Assembly: GCA_004124385.1 (NCBI GenBank)
Contig: SCKN01000005.1
Span: 62,001 to 126,000 of the forward strand
Reading direction: 5' to 3'
DNA from: Fidelibacterota bacterium
GTDB taxonomy: Bacteria > Fidelibacterota > Marinisomatia > Marinisomatales > TCS55
DNA: 64,000 nucleotides
The position numbers and the translations under genes were made by a program. Positions 21,854 to 36,983 of this stretch are shown one piece after another; the first letter of the stretch is position 1, and each line of letters starts with the position of its first letter. The notes beneath the pieces were generated by a model, which did no database searches, was not told the origin of the DNA, and worked only from the letters and a program-made list of their open reading frames with translations.

Positions 21854-22480
21854 ATGCTAGTCGAATATTTCGTAAACGGCGGACCTTTCATGTGGCCCAT
21901 TTTACTGTCACTTGTTTTTGGTCTTGCTTTTGCAGGTGAACGCTTTTATTCATTAATTATGTCATCAATAAACGCACAGAAGTTTTTTGAGGATGTAAAT
22001 AATACATTAGACAATGAAGGGGTAGATGCTACACTTGAGTTGTGTGAAAAAACAAACGGCCCAGTTGCTGAAATTTTCCACGCTGGACTTTCTCGAGTTC
22101 ATCGTGGAATTATAGAAGTAGAAAAAGCTATTCAAAATGCTGGTTCGATAGAAATGTCTTTTCTGGAAAAAAACATGATCTGGCTCAATGCAGTTATCAC
22201 GATTGCGCCTATGCTAGGATTTACAGGTACAGTGGCTGGTATGGTAAATGCTTTTGATGCAATTGCAGCTGCAGACGATATTTCACCTGCGGTTGTGGCG
22301 GGTGGAATTTCTCAGGCATTATTAACAACTGCCTTTGGTTTGATCGTGGCAATGATTATTCAAATTTTTCAGAATATCTTTGTATCCCGAATTGATAAAT
22401 TGGTTCTAGATATGGAAGAGAATTCCATAAAACTTGTTGACCATCTTTACGAGATGGAAGTAAAGAAGAAAAAGAAATAA
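21854..22480 (+). CDS. exbB: MotA/TolQ/ExbB proton channel family protein
   Basis: 208 residues with three membrane helices: about 10-30, 108-130 and 150-172. The family core is present: LNAVITIAPMLGFTGTVAGMVNAF and ISQALLTTAFGLIVAMI, including the channel-lining Thr/Pro pattern. With ExbD it uses the proton gradient to energise TonB in the inner membrane. It heads a four-gene operon with two ExbD genes and TonB. The C-terminus is a lysine run (KKKKK). Confidence 0.92.
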   Translation: MLVEYFVNGGPFMWPILLSLVFGLAFAGERFYSLIMSSINAQKFFEDVNNTLDNEGVDATLELCEKTNGPVAEIFHAGLSRVHRGIIEVEKAIQNAGSIEMSFLEKNMIWLNAVITIAPMLGFTGTVAGMVNAFDAIAAADDISPAVVAGGISQALLTTAFGLIVAMIIQIFQNIFVSRIDKLVLDMEENSIKLVDHLYEMEVKKKKK

Positions 22481-22492
22481 ACCAATAGTATA

Positions 22493-22888
22493 ATGAAAAA
22501 GAAACGCCGCTTTCGACGCGGAGAAATCCCCACAGCTTCTATGGCCGATATAGCCTTTTTGTTGCTCATATTTTTTCTAGTGACTACTACAATTGATATG
22601 GACAAAGGACTGGGTATTGTTCTACCCGCTGAGGGAGAAGAGATAGAGATTAAAAAAGATAATATTCTCAATTGTTTGATTAATTCAAGTGGAAATGTTT
22701 TGTTGGGTGGTGAACCAATTAAAACAAAGGATATTGGAAAAGAGGTTCGGCGGAAAATTGCTGAAAATCAAAAACTGATTATTTCTGTTAAGGCTCATGC
22801 AAAAACAAAATATAGTGATTATATCGCTGTTATAGATCAACTCAAAATGGCGAATGCAAAACGTATATCTATTGCGGAAGTTGAATAG
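22493..22888 (+). CDS. exbD: ExbD/TolR-family protein, first copy
   Basis: 131 residues: a basic cytosolic N-terminus (MKKKRRFRRGEIPTASMAD), a membrane helix with the conserved proton-carrying Asp (ADIAFLLLIFFLVTTTIDM), and a periplasmic domain. The periplasmic half matches the family pattern (ILNCLINSSGNVLLGGEPI). It works with ExbB. The last base of its stop codon is shared with the GTG of the second ExbD. Confidence 0.92.
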   Translation: MKKKRRFRRGEIPTASMADIAFLLLIFFLVTTTIDMDKGLGIVLPAEGEEIEIKKDNILNCLINSSGNVLLGGEPIKTKDIGKEVRRKIAENQKLIISVKAHAKTKYSDYIAVIDQLKMANAKRISIAEVE

Positions 22889-23298
22889 TGAAACTCAAAC
22901 GTAAAACAAAAATATCGAGCGAAATCCCAACAGCATCTATGCCGGATATCATTTTCATGTTGCTGATATTTTTTATGGTTACAACTGTCCTGCGTAAATA
23001 TTCCGGCCTTCCCGTGGAACTCCCCAGGGCAAAACGGATTGAAAAGCTTAAATCAAAACGACACACGTCTAATATCTGGGTTTCAAAAGAAGGATTAGTT
23101 TCAATTCAAGACAAATTACATAGCGTTGAAAATATTCGTCATGTGATGTATGATATTCGCGCTGCAGACCCATTGTTAACCGTTTCTTTAAAAGCGGATA
23201 AATCTGCAAAAATGGGCTTGATTTCGGAGATTCATAATGAATTGAGAAAAGCAGATGCGTTGAAATTAAATTATTCAACCAAAACAGCTGTTGAATAA
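22888..23298 (+). CDS. exbD: ExbD/TolR-family protein, second copy
   Basis: 136 residues starting with GTG at 22888, overlapping the first ExbD by one base. Same layout: KISSEIPTASMPDIIFMLLI with the conserved Asp, then a periplasmic domain. The two copies share the SEIPTASM/GEIPTASM segment but differ after the helix, so they are old paralogues. Tandem ExbD pairs are common in Bacteroidetes-type TonB systems and may form a heterodimer in the ExbB pore. Confidence 0.92.
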   Translation: MKLKRKTKISSEIPTASMPDIIFMLLIFFMVTTVLRKYSGLPVELPRAKRIEKLKSKRHTSNIWVSKEGLVSIQDKLHSVENIRHVMYDIRAADPLLTVSLKADKSAKMGLISEIHNELRKADALKLNYSTKTAVE

Positions 23299-23300
23299 AT

Positions 23301-23915
23301 ATGGTTAAATATTCCCCCGTATTAAAATTCAACTACCCTGTTATAGTGCGTATAGCAGGTTTTTCTGGTATTTTAATTATAACTTTTGGGTTTTTATTTA
23401 CCCCTCGAAACTTTGATGTTTTTATATTAGATGAAGCCAATCAAATTATTATTGAACAGATAGATATTCCGCAAACCCAGCAGTTAGATTTGCCGCCACC
23501 GCCAGCAAGACCCTCTGTGCCCATTGAATCAGAGGATGAAGATTTAGAAGATGTTACAATTGAAGAAACCGATTTGGAAAGTTTTGAAGCGTGGGATGCC
23601 CCTCCACCTCCACCAGAGGGACCTAGAGTTAAATTTATTCCTTATGATGATCCCCCGAGGCCGCTCACGCCTATTCGCCCAAAATATCCTGAAATTGCTC
23701 AAGAAGCTGGAATCGAGGGGACTGTTATTGTTCAGGTCTTTGTAGATAAAAAAGGACGAGTAAAAGAAACAATTATTTTAAAAGGTATCCCAAACACTGG
23801 GTTGGATGAAGCAGCTATAAAGGCAATCCGTAAAACCCGCTTTTTCCCGGCTAAGCAGCGTGAACGGGCTGTGGGTGTTTGGATATCTATTCCAGTGAAT
23901 TTCAGATTGAAATAA
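23301..23915 (+). CDS. tonB: Energy transducer TonB
   Basis: 204 residues. One N-terminal membrane helix (about 13-33), a periplasmic stretch rich in Pro and acidic residues (LDLPPPPARPSVP, DAPPPPPEGPRV), and a C-terminal TonB domain from about 120 (IRPKYPEIAQEAGIEGTVIV, then RKTRFFPAKQRERAVGVWIS). It passes energy from ExbB/ExbD to outer-membrane receptors. No TonB-dependent receptor lies in the window. Confidence 0.92.
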   Translation: MVKYSPVLKFNYPVIVRIAGFSGILIITFGFLFTPRNFDVFILDEANQIIIEQIDIPQTQQLDLPPPPARPSVPIESEDEDLEDVTIEETDLESFEAWDAPPPPPEGPRVKFIPYDDPPRPLTPIRPKYPEIAQEAGIEGTVIVQVFVDKKGRVKETIILKGIPNTGLDEAAIKAIRKTRFFPAKQRERAVGVWISIPVNFRLK

Positions 23916-29315: not shown

Positions 29316-30248
29316 TTATTCTACCATTTCACCGCCGCCAACCAAATCTGCTAGATTGAAAGCTCCATCTTTTTCCATCTGTTTTGCCGATGCAACAATT
29401 GTCTTTCTTGCTAGTTCTACTTCCCGCTTTGCAACAGCTCTTTCTACAGGATCAAACATAGCTTGTTTTTTCTTTGGTAGGTTTTCAATTACACGATTAG
29501 TTATGTCTTCTGACATCCCCTTCAAGGCCATTGCTATTGTATCAAGCTCCACAGAATTCATTAAATCCCGTATAATACTATCGGTTAATAAATCAAATAG
29601 AGCATCCCACGTTAGGTGATATTTTTTCACTTCAGCAGCAAGATCAGGGTTTTCTCTGGCAATATTTTCCAAAAATTGTGCTTCTTCTTCGGAACTTAAA
29701 CCACCCAAAATTTCCGCAACTTCTTTACCTCCACCCCGTGAAAATGCAACTGTTTTAGGTAAAAATTTTGATTTTTTATGGAGATCATTAGCCACGTTCA
29801 CCATAGCCTCTAATGGAATATCGTTTAAATTTCCCATCTCCATTATAATTTTTCCTTTTGATTCGGCAGATAAACTGTTTATCACTTTATTGCGACGTTC
29901 TCCAGGAATTTGAGCAAGTGCAATTGCTGCAACTGAATCCGATTCGGGTTTAACGAGAGCAATTAGCTGCTCATCTGTTAAATCGTCCAAAAATATAAAG
30001 GGTTTTTTTGGTTCATCAGATTCTTCATCTTGAAATTTTTCACTAACGAAACTGAAGTAAAATTCTTCCATTACATGTTTTTTCACAGCAAATGATACAT
30101 TATCAAGATCGCGCATTGCCGCTCGAACTTTACGTACCGATGTTTTTGATAAATCTTTTACCAACGTAAGGGCAAGCCCTTCTCCTAAAACAGAGAACAG
30201 TATTGCTGCCTTTTGAAGGCCTGAAAGTCTGTTAATATCTGTAATCAT
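29316..30248 (-). CDS. FliG-like rotor protein without the FliM-contact motif
   Basis: 310 residues alignable with FliG over all three domains. N domain (about 7-66): LSGLQKAAILFSVLGEG and KKHVMEEF, the part that binds FliF. Middle domain (about 84-163): where FliG has EHPQ this protein has ESDS (102-105). C domain (about 170-300): GGGKEVAEILGGLS, ENPDLAAEVKK, HLTW (211-214) in place of MFVF, the conserved ALKG (241-244) and a charged torque-helix region (KKK 259-261, DPVER 266-270). It should meet MotA at its C domain. No FliM or FliN is present. Last gene of its operon. Confidence 0.85.
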   Translation of the reverse strand: MITDINRLSGLQKAAILFSVLGEGLALTLVKDLSKTSVRKVRAAMRDLDNVSFAVKKHVMEEFYFSFVSEKFQDEESDEPKKPFIFLDDLTDEQLIALVKPESDSVAAIALAQIPGERRNKVINSLSAESKGKIIMEMGNLNDIPLEAMVNVANDLHKKSKFLPKTVAFSRGGGKEVAEILGGLSSEEEAQFLENIARENPDLAAEVKKYHLTWDALFDLLTDSIIRDLMNSVELDTIAMALKGMSEDITNRVIENLPKKKQAMFDPVERAVAKREVELARKTIVASAKQMEKDGAFNLADLVGGGEMVE

Positions 30249-30257
30249 GAGATTGCC

Positions 30258-31802
30258 TTATTTTTTCTTCTTTTTTTTCTTTTTATCGCCATCATCTTCT
30301 GTTTCAGCGGGAGTAGCCGCAACCACTGGCTCTGGTTCGGGTGGGGGTGTATCATCTTCCATCCATTCCTTTACTATTCGCGTCGCAGTGCTTGGCTGAC
30401 TAACACTCATAGATACAACTGCCTGACGCATATCAGAAATCTCGCTCTGCAAAACACTGGTGTCTTCCACGGGGGTGGATACTGCTTGTATGGCTGTCGC
30501 TTGTGGTGCTGGTTTCAACGATGTGTTTTTACTTTTTTTTTTCCGGGGTCGAGGAGGATACATCCACGGTGGGGGTAATTGTTGTTTCTGCCTATTACCC
30601 ATAATCATGATTGCCAACACAACAACAAGCACAATCACCAATGCCCCCAATAAAGATACGAATACAATCATCATTGTTGATGACCCACCTCCTCTGTTCA
30701 TACTACGATCTAAATCTGATTGCACAGCATCAAGCATGGCCAGTTTTTCAGCTATCTGAGAGTCTAATGCTGCTTTTTCACTCACTTTTTCACCCATGGC
30801 ATTTTTTGCTTGGGCGGCTTCATCTCCTGAAATATCATCAGAAGACATCATAGATTTTAAGCTGGTAATTTCATCGTTAAGCGCTTGTAGTTTTAATGAA
30901 TCGCGGCGCAAAATATCTCTTTTTTCTGCTTGATATGCTCTTTCTCGGGCAGCGGATTCTAGGTTTGTTAATTGTTGTTGAAAATACATTTTGTCTTGTT
31001 CTCGACGCGCTTCTTCCTGTGCTTTATAATTGTCTAACTCCTCTTTCCAGTTTACCAGACCATCACCCGATTGCCGTTGTTCCAATGATTCAAGTTTTTC
31101 AGCTATATTCTTCAATAAAATTTGTTCGGCTGTTTTCTCATCACGCCGTTCTTTAAACGTCGCTGTCATAATACTTAAAGCATCGTTTCGAGCACGATTA
31201 AATCGGGAAGCAACCATTACAACCTGCCGGATATTTTCTATGAGTTCCGGTGCTGCACCCTCTTGCAAAATAATGCTGATATCTAGTTTTTTAATATACG
31301 CAGTTGAAGGACGTCTACTGGTTACTGTGCGTGAAAGAACTTTGTTGTATCCATTATTAGACTGAACTGAAACAGGAGATTCCGCTGGAGATGTGATTTC
31401 ATTCATAGCAGGGGTAGTCATTTTACCCGCATCAGATTCAAACTCAAAACCGGGAATGGGTAAGCCCATAGAAATACCACTATTTTTGTTGTATGTAAAA
31501 TGATCAACTTTATTCGACGACTCGGTAGATATTGCTTCCAGTACTTGTCTGGGGCTTTGTTGACCATCGTCCACAATTGTAATTTGTTCCTCTGTCCCGG
31601 CACTGATTTCAATATCAGCATTTACATCAATGACATATTTCCGATCGTCAATTATTTTTGACAATGCGTTTGTTATGCGCTGACGAAGATCGTTTTCTAC
31701 CATCAATTTTTGTGCCAAGTAACCACTGCCTTGCCCAAAAAGCATACTTAAGCAGAAAATTGCTGTCAAAAATTGTTTATAAAATACTTTATAATTACTC
31801 AT
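30258..31802 (-). CDS. Reduced FliF-like ring protein (RBM3 domain, membrane helix, FliG-binding tail)
   Basis: 514 residues from ATG 31802, which has AAAGGAG 6 bases upstream. A signal or membrane segment (5-25) is followed by the FliF_C pattern (31-67: LRQRITNALSKIIDDRKYVI), then KLDISIILQ (172-180) and VASRFNRARNDALSIMTATF, matching the A-G-x-x-x-x-R-G-D-x-(I/L)-x-V end of that domain. The first two FliF ring domains are absent. A coiled coil (about 220-370), a membrane helix (about 373-402) and a cytosolic tail follow. The tail has QPSTATRIVKEWM (about 469-481), like the P-x-V-A-x-x-I-R-x-W-M that anchors FliG, and ends in eight Lys. Confidence 0.82.
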   Translation of the reverse strand: MSNYKVFYKQFLTAIFCLSMLFGQGSGYLAQKLMVENDLRQRITNALSKIIDDRKYVIDVNADIEISAGTEEQITIVDDGQQSPRQVLEAISTESSNKVDHFTYNKNSGISMGLPIPGFEFESDAGKMTTPAMNEITSPAESPVSVQSNNGYNKVLSRTVTSRRPSTAYIKKLDISIILQEGAAPELIENIRQVVMVASRFNRARNDALSIMTATFKERRDEKTAEQILLKNIAEKLESLEQRQSGDGLVNWKEELDNYKAQEEARREQDKMYFQQQLTNLESAARERAYQAEKRDILRRDSLKLQALNDEITSLKSMMSSDDISGDEAAQAKNAMGEKVSEKAALDSQIAEKLAMLDAVQSDLDRSMNRGGGSSTMMIVFVSLLGALVIVLVVVLAIMIMGNRQKQQLPPPWMYPPRPRKKKSKNTSLKPAPQATAIQAVSTPVEDTSVLQSEISDMRQAVVSMSVSQPSTATRIVKEWMEDDTPPPEPEPVVAATPAETEDDGDKKKKKKKK

Positions 31803-31837
31803 GATAGCTCCTTTGCTTATCAAATATAAATTCCTTT

Positions 31838-32686
31838 TTAATTAGTCGTTTTACCATCGTTCCCTACATAACTTGCTGAGTGGTGCGCTGGTTTCAAAAA
31901 TGTTATTTCTATTCTCCTGTTTCTGCCTTTTTTCTCCGGTGTATCATTGAATTTTAAGACAGTTTCCCTATCAAGAGATTTAAGCGCTAAACCGGCATCG
32001 CCCCTGTCACGTGGAACCCAATCAGCATAACCTGCAGCAACTAGGCGAGTAGGGTCAACCCCTTGAGTAATAATATTTCTCACCACTGCTGCGCCTCGCG
32101 ACGTTGACAGCTCCCAGTTCGATGGAAATTGTTTGTGAAAAACTTTTGGCAATTGATCGCTATCAGTGTGGCCTGCTACTTCAATTTGAAAGATCGAATT
32201 GTTTATTTCGCGAACAATATTATTTTTCAACAATTTTATTAAACCTGGGCTTAATTCAGAACTTCCAGATGCAAAACTGAAATCGCCGCTAATTTCCAAA
32301 GTTACTCCTTTAGGGCTTGTGGTTATCTCTACTGGAGGATCCCCTTTAGTGTCTTTCATTTCTGCTTTTATTTCTTTTACCATTTCTTTTAATGATGCTT
32401 TTACTTCAACCAACTTTGTTGCTTTTTTATCAAACCTACCTTCAAGTTCTGCTCTGCCTTCTATTTTAATTTTACTTCCTAATGATTTTCCTGCAGAGTT
32501 TGCCATCTCCATAATTTTTACTGGATCCATTGTAGACAATGCAGCTAACAAAACAAAAAACGCAAAGAGAAGTGTCATCATATCAGCAAACGTTCCAAAC
32601 CAACCAGGTAACCCTTCATCAACTTGGGATTTCCCCTTTTTAATTCCAGCTTTAAATGCTTTTTTTTCTCCTGACGTTTTTGCCAT
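31838..32686 (-). CDS. motB: MotB-type stator subunit with OmpA-like peptidoglycan-binding domain
   Basis: 282 residues. A short basic cytosolic N-terminus, then one membrane helix with the proton- or sodium-carrying Asp35 in GTFADMMTLLFAFFVLLAAL. A periplasmic linker (about 60-130) leads to an OmpA-like domain with EVAGHTDSD, NWELSTSRGAAVVRNII and GRNRRIEI. This is the MotB architecture, distinct from ExbD/TolR and from GldM/PorM. It should anchor MotA to the cell wall. Four bases separate it from motA. Confidence 0.92.
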   Translation of the reverse strand: MAKTSGEKKAFKAGIKKGKSQVDEGLPGWFGTFADMMTLLFAFFVLLAALSTMDPVKIMEMANSAGKSLGSKIKIEGRAELEGRFDKKATKLVEVKASLKEMVKEIKAEMKDTKGDPPVEITTSPKGVTLEISGDFSFASGSSELSPGLIKLLKNNIVREINNSIFQIEVAGHTDSDQLPKVFHKQFPSNWELSTSRGAAVVRNIITQGVDPTRLVAAGYADWVPRDRGDAGLALKSLDRETVLKFNDTPEKKGRNRRIEITFLKPAHHSASYVGNDGKTTN

Positions 32687-32690
32687 TTAA

Positions 32691-33473
32691 TTATTCTTCT
32701 TTTTTCCATTCCTTCGGCGGTATAAAAGAATTCAATTTTTCCCTAACGATCAAAGGATGTTTCTTTTGATGAATAAGACGAGCTGCTTCAACCAGCATCG
32801 CCTGCAATGTACTCGTGAAACTCATTCGTGTGTTTAATTTTTCACTCATTGGCAGAAAAAATAGGTTCGCGAATACAGTACCATAAAATGTTGTAATCAA
32901 CGCAGCCGACATACCGGGGCCCAATGCATCCGCGCCACCCTCTCCACCAAAACCTGACAACATAATAACCAGCCCAATCAACGTTCCGATCATACCCCAG
33001 GCGGGAGCCATGGTCCCCATAGATTTAAACAATCCTGCCTGTGTTTTTTCACGTATTTCCCGATATTCAATTCGTGTTTCTAATATTTCAGTTAATTCAT
33101 CTAAGCTATAACCATCCACTACCATTTGTACACCATCCCTGAAAAATGGATTTTTTATACTTTCAACTGATTTTTCAAGTTCAACTACGCCTTTACGACC
33201 TACCTCTGCTGTTTCTATAGCATCATCAACTACTGCACCCAGCTTAACTTCCCCGCCTTTAAAGACAGCGCCTATAGCGGAACCCAGCTTGAGAACATCT
33301 GACAAAGGAAAAGCAACCGATACCGATGCTATCATTCCTCCAAAAACAATTGCAAAGCTTGATGGTGAAATAAATCCGCCCATTCCTGCATTAGCAGCTG
33401 AAGCGGCTAAAAATATTCCGCCAAAAATTGATACCAAGCCAAGAATAATTCCTACTAATGTTGCAATATCCAT
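32691..33473 (-). CDS. motA: MotA-type stator subunit
   Basis: 260 residues from ATG 33473 (AGGGAG upstream; a TTG at 33494 is less likely). Four membrane helices with the large cytosolic loop of MotA between helices 2 and 3. Both family prolines are there: P157 in MAPAWGMIGTLIGLVIM and P208 in FANLFFLPMSEKL. With MotB it forms an ion-driven stator that pushes on FliG. It starts seven bases after the stop of the barrel-TPR gene. Confidence 0.93.
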   Translation of the reverse strand: MDIATLVGIILGLVSIFGGIFLAASAANAGMGGFISPSSFAIVFGGMIASVSVAFPLSDVLKLGSAIGAVFKGGEVKLGAVVDDAIETAEVGRKGVVELEKSVESIKNPFFRDGVQMVVDGYSLDELTEILETRIEYREIREKTQAGLFKSMGTMAPAWGMIGTLIGLVIMLSGFGGEGGADALGPGMSAALITTFYGTVFANLFFLPMSEKLNTRMSFTSTLQAMLVEAARLIHQKKHPLIVREKLNSFIPPKEWKKEE

Positions 33474-33480
33474 AGTCTCC

Positions 33481-34905
33481 CTACTCCTCCACAATGCTCG
33501 TGGAATTTAAACGGTTTTCGTGCAAAGCCTTTAAAATATTACGCACATCATCATATTCGGGATCCAGACGCAAGGCCAAATTCCAGTTAATCGTTGCCCG
33601 TTGCGTATCCCCAAGTTTATAATATATTGAGCCTCGTCGAGCATAAGCTAAGGCCATATTTGGATTCAAATCTAAAGCTGATTCCACTTCTTGCAATGCG
33701 GCTCGGTAGTCTCCGGCATAAAAATAGCGTAATGATCGAGATAAGTGACGCATGGCTTCATTCATATTTTTTTCGTCAACATTTCGACTCAATTTCATTG
33801 ATAATAATGAATCTTCTAAAAATTGAGACTGCTGCTCTATAGCCGCTAATTGGACCATTAAATTACGCATTTCATTTCTTAACATGTTCATAGAGTCCCG
33901 AACTGTATGAACAGCAAAATCAGCCATAGCCAAAGTGGAGTCCATAGAGGATGATAATGTTTCATATTGACCTGTCGCAGGTAGTTTAAGCTGTCCCCTG
34001 GGCAAAGGTGAGGGCACCCCTGAACGACCAGAACCTTTTTTAAATCCGCGTGGTACTGCCATATCAAATCCCAAAGTAATACCGGGATGACCTTCCCAAT
34101 ATCTGGATTTCCAGTCCGGCAGTTTTTCTATGTGGGTGAACCCTAGGTTCAAGCGATAATCCGAGGTAAGGGGGATGCGGAGTCCCACATTGATGCCTGT
34201 CCCGTCGAATTCACCCACAATATCTATTCCACCCCATTTTTTCAAATAGGGTGTATTCATAATTACGCCCACAAATACACCAGATTTAGTGCCTCCAGAC
34301 GTTGTTACTTCTGTAGTAGAAGATGATGTTTCTTCAGACGTACTTAAAGCCTTTATTGTATCTGCAGGTGCAAATCCACCCGACCCAAAACCCATAAAAG
34401 TGCTTAAATGATATTTACCCAAATCTTTTTCACTGCTTACCACAACAAAAAACGATAATTGTTCTGGGTCTAGACTTAAACCGCTTCCTCCGCTTGTTTC
34501 TGCATTTTGAAACACAATATCCTGCAAACCCAATGAAAGCGAAACATTATTGTATGTATAGACGCGCTGCTGCAAATGAAATCCAAATTCTACGGGCGGC
34601 GTGTATCCCGTTTTTCCCAGAAGAGCGGGGGCAGTGCTGTCTGCTGTCTGTACAGATGAAAAACCCAATGTGAAATTCTTTCCTAGCTCCATATCAAAAT
34701 AGATACCTTTAGCCGAGTTAAAAGGGTCAAATCTGTGAAGCTCTATACCAAAACCTGTACGGAATAAATATGGAGCTTGGGTTGTGCTGGATGTTGGAAT
34801 TTTCATCATAAACCCGGGACGAGTGTATGCAACACGAGACGCACCTGAGGATACTGACATTAACACCAAAAACGGTAATAAATAAACATATGATCGTCTT
34901 TTCAC
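33481..34905 (-). CDS. Outer-membrane beta-barrel protein fused to a coiled coil and TPR domain
   Basis: 474 residues. Signal peptide, then about 280 residues of alternating beta strands typical of an outer-membrane barrel (GFGIELHRFDPF, IYFDMELGKNFTLGFSS, YHLSTFMGFGSGGF, GINVGLRIPLTSDYRLNLGF). A linker leads to a coiled coil (about 325-375) and two or three TPR units near the C-terminus (RYFYAGDYRAALQEVESAL, YARRGSIYYKLGDTQRATI). The TPR part should sit in the periplasm. It could link the MotAB/FliF/FliG complex to the outer membrane; that link is an inference from operon position. Confidence 0.7.
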   Translation of the reverse strand: MKRRSYVYLLPFLVLMSVSSGASRVAYTRPGFMMKIPTSSTTQAPYLFRTGFGIELHRFDPFNSAKGIYFDMELGKNFTLGFSSVQTADSTAPALLGKTGYTPPVEFGFHLQQRVYTYNNVSLSLGLQDIVFQNAETSGGSGLSLDPEQLSFFVVVSSEKDLGKYHLSTFMGFGSGGFAPADTIKALSTSEETSSSTTEVTTSGGTKSGVFVGVIMNTPYLKKWGGIDIVGEFDGTGINVGLRIPLTSDYRLNLGFTHIEKLPDWKSRYWEGHPGITLGFDMAVPRGFKKGSGRSGVPSPLPRGQLKLPATGQYETLSSSMDSTLAMADFAVHTVRDSMNMLRNEMRNLMVQLAAIEQQSQFLEDSLLSMKLSRNVDEKNMNEAMRHLSRSLRYFYAGDYRAALQEVESALDLNPNMALAYARRGSIYYKLGDTQRATINWNLALRLDPEYDDVRNILKALHENRLNSTSIVEE

Positions 34906-35798
34906 TGCAACACCAGCTCCCCTCGCTTTATTTCTAATGTTGCTAATCGTAAGTATTCACTTTCAGGATGACCCACCACTACTTTTTTAAAAGAGTTCAA
35001 AGCTAAACCCAAATCGCCTTGATCTTTATAGAGTAATCCTTTTTTAACTAATGCATCATCAACCATATCTGATTTTTTATATGATAATAATTCATTTAAA
35101 ACTGTTAAAGCGCGTTCATAATCATGCATTTGTAAATATGCATCCGCTTTCCAATATAGAACATTTTCAATTTTATCAAGATCCGCTGATTGTAAGTTAA
35201 GGTCATCAAAACAATGCAGTGCAGTAGCAAGGTTTCCGCATTGGTATGCAAACATACCCGCCATATATAAATCCATGTCAAATCGTTTTGGTTGTTCCGG
35301 CAAAACCAGTACAATACTTTTTACTATTGGCAGTTCTTTAATGTCAATATTTTCCAGTATCTGTGGATCAATAAGCGCCATGTTGATTTCTGGAAGATCG
35401 GGTTTCTCTAATGCTGGTATAGAGAGATCTGTAAGTATTTGCTGTAGTTTAATATTTTCTGATACTAACACCATTACTTCATTGTGGAAAAATGTTTCCA
35501 AGTTCATCAATCGAGTATTAATTCTATCAATAGCAGTTAAAAGCTCCTGGTTTGCTATTGTATTCAATGTTCCGCTTTTAACCTGCTTAACCCTAATATT
35601 AACTTCTTTTGAAGGGCTTTCTATGTGGCGATTATAAACAACAACCCCACTAGACGGTTCAATAACAACACCAAGATCTAAAAGGTAAATCTCTGATAAA
35701 GATGATGATGGGTGCTGTTGGCCACTAATTGGAATCGTTAGGGAAAAAGTTATTCCCAGTCCGAATAAAACACGGCGGTAAAGAGATACCGCTGTCAT
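34902..35798 (-). CDS. Periplasmic TPR protein of the motor operon
   Basis: 298 residues from ATG 35798, whose A is the last base of the upstream stop codon (TAATG). A signal peptide (to about ISGQ) is followed by an unfamiliar region, a possible coiled coil (about 90-125), and a C-terminal TPR block (MAGMFAYQCGNLATALHCF, YLQMHDYERALTVLNELL, YKDQGDLGLALNSFKKVV). It overlaps the next gene by 4 bases. Likely a periplasmic scaffold of the same complex. Confidence 0.7.
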   Translation of the reverse strand: MTAVSLYRRVLFGLGITFSLTIPISGQQHPSSSLSEIYLLDLGVVIEPSSGVVVYNRHIESPSKEVNIRVKQVKSGTLNTIANQELLTAIDRINTRLMNLETFFHNEVMVLVSENIKLQQILTDLSIPALEKPDLPEINMALIDPQILENIDIKELPIVKSIVLVLPEQPKRFDMDLYMAGMFAYQCGNLATALHCFDDLNLQSADLDKIENVLYWKADAYLQMHDYERALTVLNELLSYKKSDMVDDALVKKGLLYKDQGDLGLALNSFKKVVVGHPESEYLRLATLEIKRGELVLQ

Positions 35799-36930
35799 TA
35801 TTCGTATTCCTCCCAATCAATGACATAAGAGTATCCGATAAAGGATCCAAAATCATTGGGCAAGAATAATTCAAACGCTCCAAACGCCCCCGGGAGTAAA
35901 GTGGCATCTGTGGTGATGCCGGAGTCGAAGGTGTGGTATGTTCCGCGTAAAAACGTAGTGAGTGTCTTGGTCTCACCGCTCCAGTTTTTACGAAATACAA
36001 AATCAACTTTCACAAAATCTGCCCGGCGGCCGCCAATGTTTTTAATCTCTCCTGTAAAGATAATTGCACCCTGATTATCCTTGCGCTCACTGATATTGCC
36101 AACCAGAACACAATTCGCAGAATATCTTTTTCCAGCTGAACGACTAAATGGATCAGCTGATGTATATTTGGGTTGTGCCAGTTTGGGCATGGGCGGTGGG
36201 GAGTAACTATCGCGAATCTGTTCTGGTACATATTCTTGTGTTTCCTCTGTTACCACATTATCAATAACCCTGACTATATTTTTACGTTCAATAATCAGAT
36301 AACCCAATAAAGTTTCGATTTTTAGTGTTTCTTCATCTTGATAAATAATCTTACCAAATACTGTGCTACCGTTTTGAAGTATTATTTCTTTTGAATAAAT
36401 AGCCAGTGGGTTTATCCACATTTTGCTTAAAGCCTTCAAGTCTTCCAGTTCGGAATTAAGATACTTGATTTCTGCAGATAGCTTTTTTAGTTCAAAACTT
36501 AATTCTGTTGTTACATAATCCGCATCGGTACCAGGAATATCTCCACCCCCTTTTAATACGACTTCTTTTTTGACTTCTGCTTTTACAGATAATACTAATT
36601 CTAAATCTTCTAAATCATCATTTGAAACAGTAATGGGGATACTGGCTTTCCCTTTTTTACCAGCATCTGCTTTTAAAACATAGTCACCAGGAAGGACTTT
36701 TTTAAATTTGAACGTAACCACCGCCCATACCCATCGCTTTTGGATGATTCCGTGCGTTGGGATTCAACGCCATCTGATGTAAGTAATAAAACGGTTGTTC
36801 TGCCAACTTTTTCACCATCTGCATCAAATACAGTACCTTTAACTTTGTAACCTTTTGCATTGAGGGTGGAGCTATAAGCAAAAATACTAAGTACAATAAG
36901 TGTGTATTTAAACAGCGATTTTATGTTCAT
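35798..36930 (-). CDS. Carboxypeptidase-regulatory-like/coiled-coil/Sm-like protein with an apparent frameshift
   Basis: Two frames join into one protein of about 377 residues. Frame 1 from ATG 36930 (GAGGT upstream) gives a signal peptide and KGYKVKGTVFDADGEKVGR, the start of a CarboxypepD_reg domain, up to SDGYGR. The rest of that domain, VTFKFKKVLPGDYVLKAD, is in another frame from about 36721. One extra base in the G-rich stretch at 36713-36725 would restore it. After this come a coiled coil (ELSFELKKLSAEIKYLNSEL) and a small beta-barrel-like unit (LQNGSTVFGKIIYQDEETLK). First gene of the motor operon. It may be a real mutation or a sequence error. Confidence 0.65.
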
Positions 36931-36983
36931 AAAGTTACCTCGGGTATGCAAGAATCAAGACGAACTACTGCCTTGGATAGATG

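Follow-up and report, generated by a model that had tools for sequence, protein, structure and literature searches.

The window, by which we mean the whole stretch of 64,000 nucleotides that was analysed, carries on its minus strand a run of seven genes that encode, in order, an Ig-like protein, a TPR protein, an outer-membrane barrel with a TPR tail, MotA, MotB, a shortened FliF (mini-FliF) and, in last place, FliG. Inspection of the open reading frames showed that 29316..30248 is the FliG frame (minus strand, 310 aa); the plus strand of the same interval has no long open frame. The gene is a real FliG with N, M and C domains, as seen in Pfam (FliG_N 66, FliG_M 41 and FliG_C 71 bits, all over the cut-offs), in the family alignment and in a PDB search, where it aligned with FliG chains, best with 1lkv. 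Against the flagellar equivalog TIGR00207 it scored 94.5 bits, below the curated cut-off of 226.7, and it is the single FliG of a genome of 2.09 Mb that is 96.8% complete.

The neighbouring mini-FliF (30258..31823, minus strand, 521 aa) matches YscJ_FliF_C (PF08345) with 36.6 bits, and the Pfam search returned no match to the YscJ_FliF N-terminal domain (RBM1/RBM2); with TIGR00206 it reached 22.8 bits, the cut-off being 129.75. A 40-copy mini-FliF profile searched against the PDB found FliF chains (8z4d, E 1.7e-05), and in a second, weak stretch of this profile the tail was aligned to the FliG-binding C-terminus of FliF in 8z4d. This tail reads ATRIVKEW, resembling the FliG-binding tail of FliF, and its tryptophan (W487) is invariant in all 40 copies. 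From sequence and alignment we infer a topology with an N-terminal hydrophobic segment, the RBM3/collar part only, a predicted periplasmic coiled coil, visible as a long helical-looking stretch between the ring domain and the membrane anchor, one C-terminal TM segment and a cytoplasmic tail.

The stator genes follow upstream, a MotB/PomB-like subunit at 31838..32686 and a MotA/PomA-like subunit at 32691..33494 (both minus strand; MotA with 97 bits in Pfam). Together they show the MotA_ExbB domain, the MotB plug, the OmpA domain and the ion-binding Asp of MotAB/PomAB, and in 12 relatives MotA is 67-90% identical to the window copy. The only other stator-type unit with a PF01618 match in the window genome is an ExbB, also in the window, that lies close to the operon on the plus strand, together with two ExbD genes and a TonB-like gene (21854-23915).

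The three remaining genes, likewise on the minus strand, are those of the predicted outer-membrane and exported proteins. For the barrel protein (33481..34905), an AF2 model with a mean pLDDT of 76 shows strands over residues 46-285, a long helix of 75 residues (323-397) and a C-terminal TPR domain; with this model, Foldseek returned generic barrel and TPR matches (FapF, OmpG, OMPLA and TPR proteins). The putatively exported TPR protein (34902..35816) has weak YbgF/BamD/SprE-like TPR matches. By profile match and model (pLDDT 78, with generic Ig-fold matches in Foldseek), the likewise exported Ig-like protein (35798..36951) has a carboxypeptidase-regulatory-like Ig domain, a helix and beta domains. 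In relatives it is a single open frame of about 390 aa, and in the window it is broken across frames, three of which are matched in tblastn by the protein of a related locus (L062); the split may be either an assembly error or a real break.

Conservation of the operon and of the FliG motifs

A contig scan with two peptide patterns yielded 93 relatives, of which 80 loci were kept. The record titles of the scanned relatives name Marinimicrobia/Neomarinimicrobiota, 'FCB group bacterium', unnamed bacteria and, once, SAR86. This last record (L114, JAKUUL010000067.1) is a 4-kb contig in a SAR86 bin, carrying a FliG of the non-flagellar type and a mini-FliF at 56% identity, and is probably a mis-binned Marinimicrobia contig. 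Gene order was colinear in 80 of 80 loci, with mini-FliF directly upstream of FliG in 77 and the other three at contig edges. Fifty-one loci extend far enough upstream for a full count, with over 7.5 kb between FliG and the start of the locus; all seven genes are present in 44 of them, the TPR gene being undetected in seven and the Ig-like gene in one. When searched with the FliG alignment, 168 of the 245 genomes of the phylum gave a match, 156 of them strong (E below 1e-30) and 12 weak, the latter probably being flagellar FliG. Genomes scored without FliG are found in families f15 (small genomes) and f13, in two f23 genera and among the incomplete bins; in one of them (G012), barrel, MotA, MotB and mini-FliF are present up to the contig end.

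The residues of FliG were compared in an alignment of the 80 non-flagellar loci and the window (81 copies) against four flagellar FliGs of flagellated bacteria within the same order, with six plasmid-borne flagellar FliGs as further controls. (The other alignments, with copies picked for spread, comprise 12 each in A1 and A2, 40 in A3 and 36 each in A4 and A5.) EHPQ and MFxF are treated here as motifs of flagellar FliG, EHPQ being its FliM contact. The original prediction had held that EHPQ is replaced by ESDS in the middle domain and MFVF by HLTW in the C domain, and the residues are indeed as claimed: ESDS occupies the EHPQ position (residues 102-105, 29934..29945, minus strand; window PESDSVAA against flagellar NEHPQTxA), and HLTW the MFxF position (residues 211-214, 29607..29618, minus strand; window KYHLTWDAL against flagellar SLMFxFEDI). 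Homologues from the same operon type agree, since none of the 81 copies retains EHPQ, which is present in all four flagellar FliGs of the phylum; the plasmid-borne controls have EHPQ (4), ELPQ (1) or EYPQ (1), making E[HLY]PQ in 10 of 10 flagellar controls. At this position the non-flagellar copies keep E in 81/81 and lack Q in 81/81. Their MFxF position, which mostly reads HLTF, has lost the M-F pair in every copy and kept the last aromatic residue in every copy (F 68, W 12, Y 1).

With EHPQ in none of 81 copies and both Q and the M-F pair absent from all of them, the motif change is not a matter of chance or sequencing error, and a frameshift is ruled out by the same 81 copies. The alignment supports loss of the FliM contact as a family property of the non-flagellar FliG. 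The word 'loss', which the original prediction had used, holds as far as the family-wide absence goes, but it presumes a flagellar ancestor that the unrooted tree does not show. In this tree of 36 of the 91 rows (26 of 81 non-flagellar, all 10 flagellar), which has long branches, the two types are split by a branch of length 1.63 with support 100/100; being unrooted, it is silent on which type arose first. When plasmids were searched with the FliG of the window, the 10 of 18 records listed had identities of at most 25% and, where annotated, were flagellar FliG.

The side of FliG that faces the stator had been predicted to be kept, and this is true in part. In what we take to be E. coli numbering (K264, R281, D288, D289, L290), the lysine of ALKG (K264; residues 241-244, 29517..29528, minus strand) is invariant in 81/81 copies, and the R281 position is Lys, hence still basic, in 81/81. 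The torque helix itself is changed: its remodelled region LPKKKQAM (residues 257-264, 29457..29480, minus strand) stands directly before a three-residue deletion over D288-L290 that is found in all 81 non-flagellar FliGs. On the stator side, the equivalents of R90 and E98, presumably the MotA residues that face the torque helix in flagella, are invariant in operon MotA (69 copies longer than 200 aa, window included), and so is the ion-binding Asp of TFADMMTLL in operon MotB (72 copies longer than 200 aa, window included). The acidic charge of the helix is gone, its net charge being zero or above in 78 of 81 non-flagellar copies and negative in nine of ten flagellar ones, with the tenth at zero; a negatively charged torque helix in flagellar FliG is also stated in PMC11087270. 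With the torque helix altered and the key residues of MotA and MotB invariant, the FliG-stator contact reads from the sequences as present yet remodelled relative to flagella, and it would be unlike the flagellar one because both D288-L290 and the negative charge have gone from the helix.

Switch, export gate and flagella in the phylum

In the window genome, domain searches found no FliM/FliN-type SpoA domain, no FlhA (the type III export gate) and no CheW. The original prediction of an absent FliM/FliN is thus borne out in a genome that is 96.8% complete, and its reading of a rotor without a switch complex or Che-driven reversal fits, as the genome has no SpoA, second FliG, FlhA or CheW; we regard such a switch-less rotor as well supported by gene content. 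Among 61 relatives, SpoA occurs in seven, FlhA is over the cut-off in the same seven, and CheW is found in two genomes, both SpoA-bearing. Operon-type FliG is present in 47 of the 61, 41 without and six with SpoA. Co-occurrence of FliM/FliN with the operon had been named as evidence against the prediction, and these six genomes do show it, but as flagellar clusters, with FlhA in the same genomes. Three of them (G013, G041, G045) hold, besides the operon-type FliG, a separate flagellar FliG with EHPQ; in G008, G015 and G053 a flagellar FliG did not turn up, their FliM/FliN contigs ending at about its expected place. A flagellar-type FliG was seen in four of the seven SpoA genomes, the fourth (G049) having no strong match to the operon type.

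Type IX secretion and the operon

Of the 61 genomes, 60 have SprA, the type IX translocon; the window genome carries it on contig C4 and the operon on C7. The run of genes around SprA (L176, G000:C4:23000-42000) also encodes a PorV-family protein that exceeds the NCBI cut-off, a PorQ-like one, a further protein with a weak match to a T9SS-type C-terminus, and an M28 peptidase that on visual inspection resembles glutaminyl cyclases. C-terminal sorting tails (Por_Secre_tail), which with SprA and the PorV-family carrier make up the type IX components found in the window genome outside the operon, occur in 61 of 61 genomes and at least 78 times in the window genome. Such tails have already been noted in SAR406 (PMC5596340); a 2016 survey placed T9SS in Bacteroidetes only (PMC4793230). 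GldM was not found in the window genome and was over the cut-off in one of 61 (G019), GldN neither in the window genome nor over the cut-off in any of the 61, the GldN search being one without a positive control. The GldM search does work, as it found gldM on a 5.2-kb contig of G019 (L179, G019:C43), which serves as its positive control and also carries gldK and gldL, seen nowhere else; this contig, from a Marinimicrobia bin with 4% contamination, is likely a contaminant, with horizontal transfer as the alternative.

Operon and T9SS cargo were compared in 98 genomes at least 90% complete and do not match cleanly. Twenty-three of these lack operon-type FliG: eight, all of f15, have 2-4 tails, and 15 have from 14 to at least 52. 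The few tails of f15 may reflect mere streamlining, because these genomes are small (0.8-1.0 Mb). Two genera of f23 (g63 and g64) have 30-48 tails and no operon-type FliG, and two f13 genomes out of the 15 (G048 and G059, with 44 and 23 tails) have SprA, no GldM, no operon-type FliG and ExbB-type stators only. In operon-less f13, two loci (L184, G048:C2; L193, G084:C311) carry a barrel-like gene that is followed by an additional ExbB-ExbD unit, the former also with a TonB-like gene, the latter ending inside ExbD; the unit might be a replacement drive.

A putative envelope-spanning rotor

Taken together, the operon is likely, though by no means certain, to encode a rotor and stator powered by ions, a non-flagellar machine reaching across the cell envelope. 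In such a machine, mini-FliF would assemble into a small inner-membrane ring whose tails bear a second, cytoplasmic ring made of FliG; MotAB, fixed to the cell wall, would drive the FliG ring, and the coiled coil of mini-FliF would transmit the motion through the periplasmic proteins to the outer-membrane barrel. The motor would be expected to turn in one direction only, because FliM/FliN and Che proteins are absent. Its load is the least certain step: it may be work at the outer membrane connected with gliding or type IX secretion, where the operon would substitute for a GldLM that is missing. This is the likeliest candidate in our eyes and a tentative one.

Two alternatives would deny the machine altogether. 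A reduced flagellum or relic of one that has stopped turning, with FliF and FliG as a scaffold and MotAB as an ion channel, would agree with the absent switch and export gate and with the changed torque helix; it is nevertheless very improbable, given the strong conservation of MotA, the invariant ion-binding and rotor-facing residues, the fixed gene order (80/80 loci) and the genomes in which the operon and flagellar genes occur side by side as separate sets. Gene decay was rejected on the first three of these grounds. That FliG is an ordinary flagellar one, with FliM/FliN merely missing from incomplete assemblies, has a negligible chance: the genomes are mostly MAGs and seven of 61 relatives do have SpoA genes, but 41 of the 47 relatives with operon-type FliG have none, three genomes (G013, G041, G045) hold both FliG types, EHPQ is in no copy, and mini-FliF lacks the match to the YscJ_FliF N-terminal domain. 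The distribution of SpoA, the two FliG types within one genome and the motif data together rule out a flagellar FliG that has lost its neighbour.

The other two alternatives concern the load. The operon could be the motor of the Marinimicrobia type IX/gliding apparatus, FliG/MotAB replacing GldLM and pushing the barrel in the outer membrane, with its partner proteins, in the way that GldLM of Bacteroidota moves the GldKN track. In Bacteroidota, cargo release by T9SS needs energy supplied by GldLM (PMC10994853), and a moving track containing GldK carries outer-membrane proteins (PMC12635249). The near-universal SprA with its PorV-family neighbour, the many sorting tails, the absence of GldM from all but the G019 contig and of any GldN over the cut-off (no positive control), and the operon-less f15 genomes with their 2-4 tails (8/8) all speak for such a motor; against it stand f13, which has SprA and tails without operon-type FliG, GldM or a MotA-type stator, the tail-rich f23 genera, the possible streamlining of f15, and SprA and operon lying on different contigs. 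As 15 of 23 FliG-lacking genomes are rich in tails and G048 and G059 have SprA, we put this forward as a conjecture that is rather unlikely as it stands. Alternatively, the operon may, much as AglRQS or TolQR do, drive another envelope process, such as T9SS-independent surface movement, polymer export, or tension of the outer membrane or wall, the co-occurrence with SprA being phylum history. This is a possibility to be taken seriously, if still not a probable one: outside f15, the presence of the operon does not go along with that of T9SS cargo, the model of the barrel looks like porins and exporters of a general kind (FapF, OmpG, OMPLA), and the TPR protein has its YbgF-like match; yet no operon gene is recognisable as a polymer-export or Tol part, and the genome has a T9SS translocon with no match to its usual motor.

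We thus favour the envelope-spanning rotor. In titles and abstract openings of the open-licence PMC literature we found no description of this operon, and given the conserved rotor-core genes, the tie to the outer membrane and the lack of a switch or export gate, Marinimicrobia probably hold an ion-driven machine of an undescribed type. Its fullest version, a phylum-wide, one-directional FliG/MotAB machine with neither switch, export gate nor filament, coupled to the outer membrane and doing the work of GldLM in type IX secretion and surface movement, is doubtful as a whole. If it were true, parts of the rotor to which FliG is regarded as belonging, the flagellar one, would be used twice, as a propeller and as an outer-membrane drive. 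As a concrete and conserved candidate, the operon combines FliG with a FliF and a stator of its own and with partners at the outer membrane, in a marine phylum that is widespread. It would provide a natural minimal rotor (FliF RBM3 and FliG without FliM/FliN) for asking what the C-ring contributes, as well as a different stator interface for comparison, in which the torque helix lacks D288-D289 and MotA still has R90 and E98. It also raises the question of where Marinimicrobia, lacking a match to GldM, draw the energy for a type IX translocon.

With the core of the flagellar motor (FliF/FliG and MotAB/PomAB), the operon shares a three-domain FliG, the RBM3 of FliF with a FliG-binding-type tail, the R90/E98 equivalents of MotA, and the Asp and plug of MotB. 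It differs in that the window genome lacks FliM/FliN, FlhA and CheW, mini-FliF has a long coiled coil and no RBM1/RBM2 match, the torque helix of FliG is three residues shorter and no longer acidic, and the operon adds a barrel of the outer membrane together with exported proteins of the TPR and Ig-like kinds. Neither AglRQS-Glt of Myxococcus nor TolQR/ExbBD is known to have a FliG/FliF rotor. What these systems do share with the operon is a MotA/MotB-type motor for non-flagellar use with TPR and outer-membrane partners (see also PMC9389320). The FliF-FliG fusion of Chlamydiaceae, as far as it is described in the cited part of PMC4768692, is a further case of flagellar rotor parts without flagella and with a shortened FliF. 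However, the fusion carries the M region of FliG only, whereas the Marinimicrobia FliG is complete and has its own MotAB; its FliF part lacks the SpoIIIAG-like domain, exactly the third ring domain that mini-FliF keeps; and it coexists with FlhA and an injectisome, while no FlhA was found in the window genome. GldLM of Bacteroidota, finally, likewise sits in the inner membrane as a motor driven by ions and belongs to cells that have SprA, PorV-family proteins and T9SS tails. The window genome has no match to GldM or GldN, however, and while GldLM itself reaches across the periplasm, the motor of the operon would be MotAB pushing a ring of FliG.
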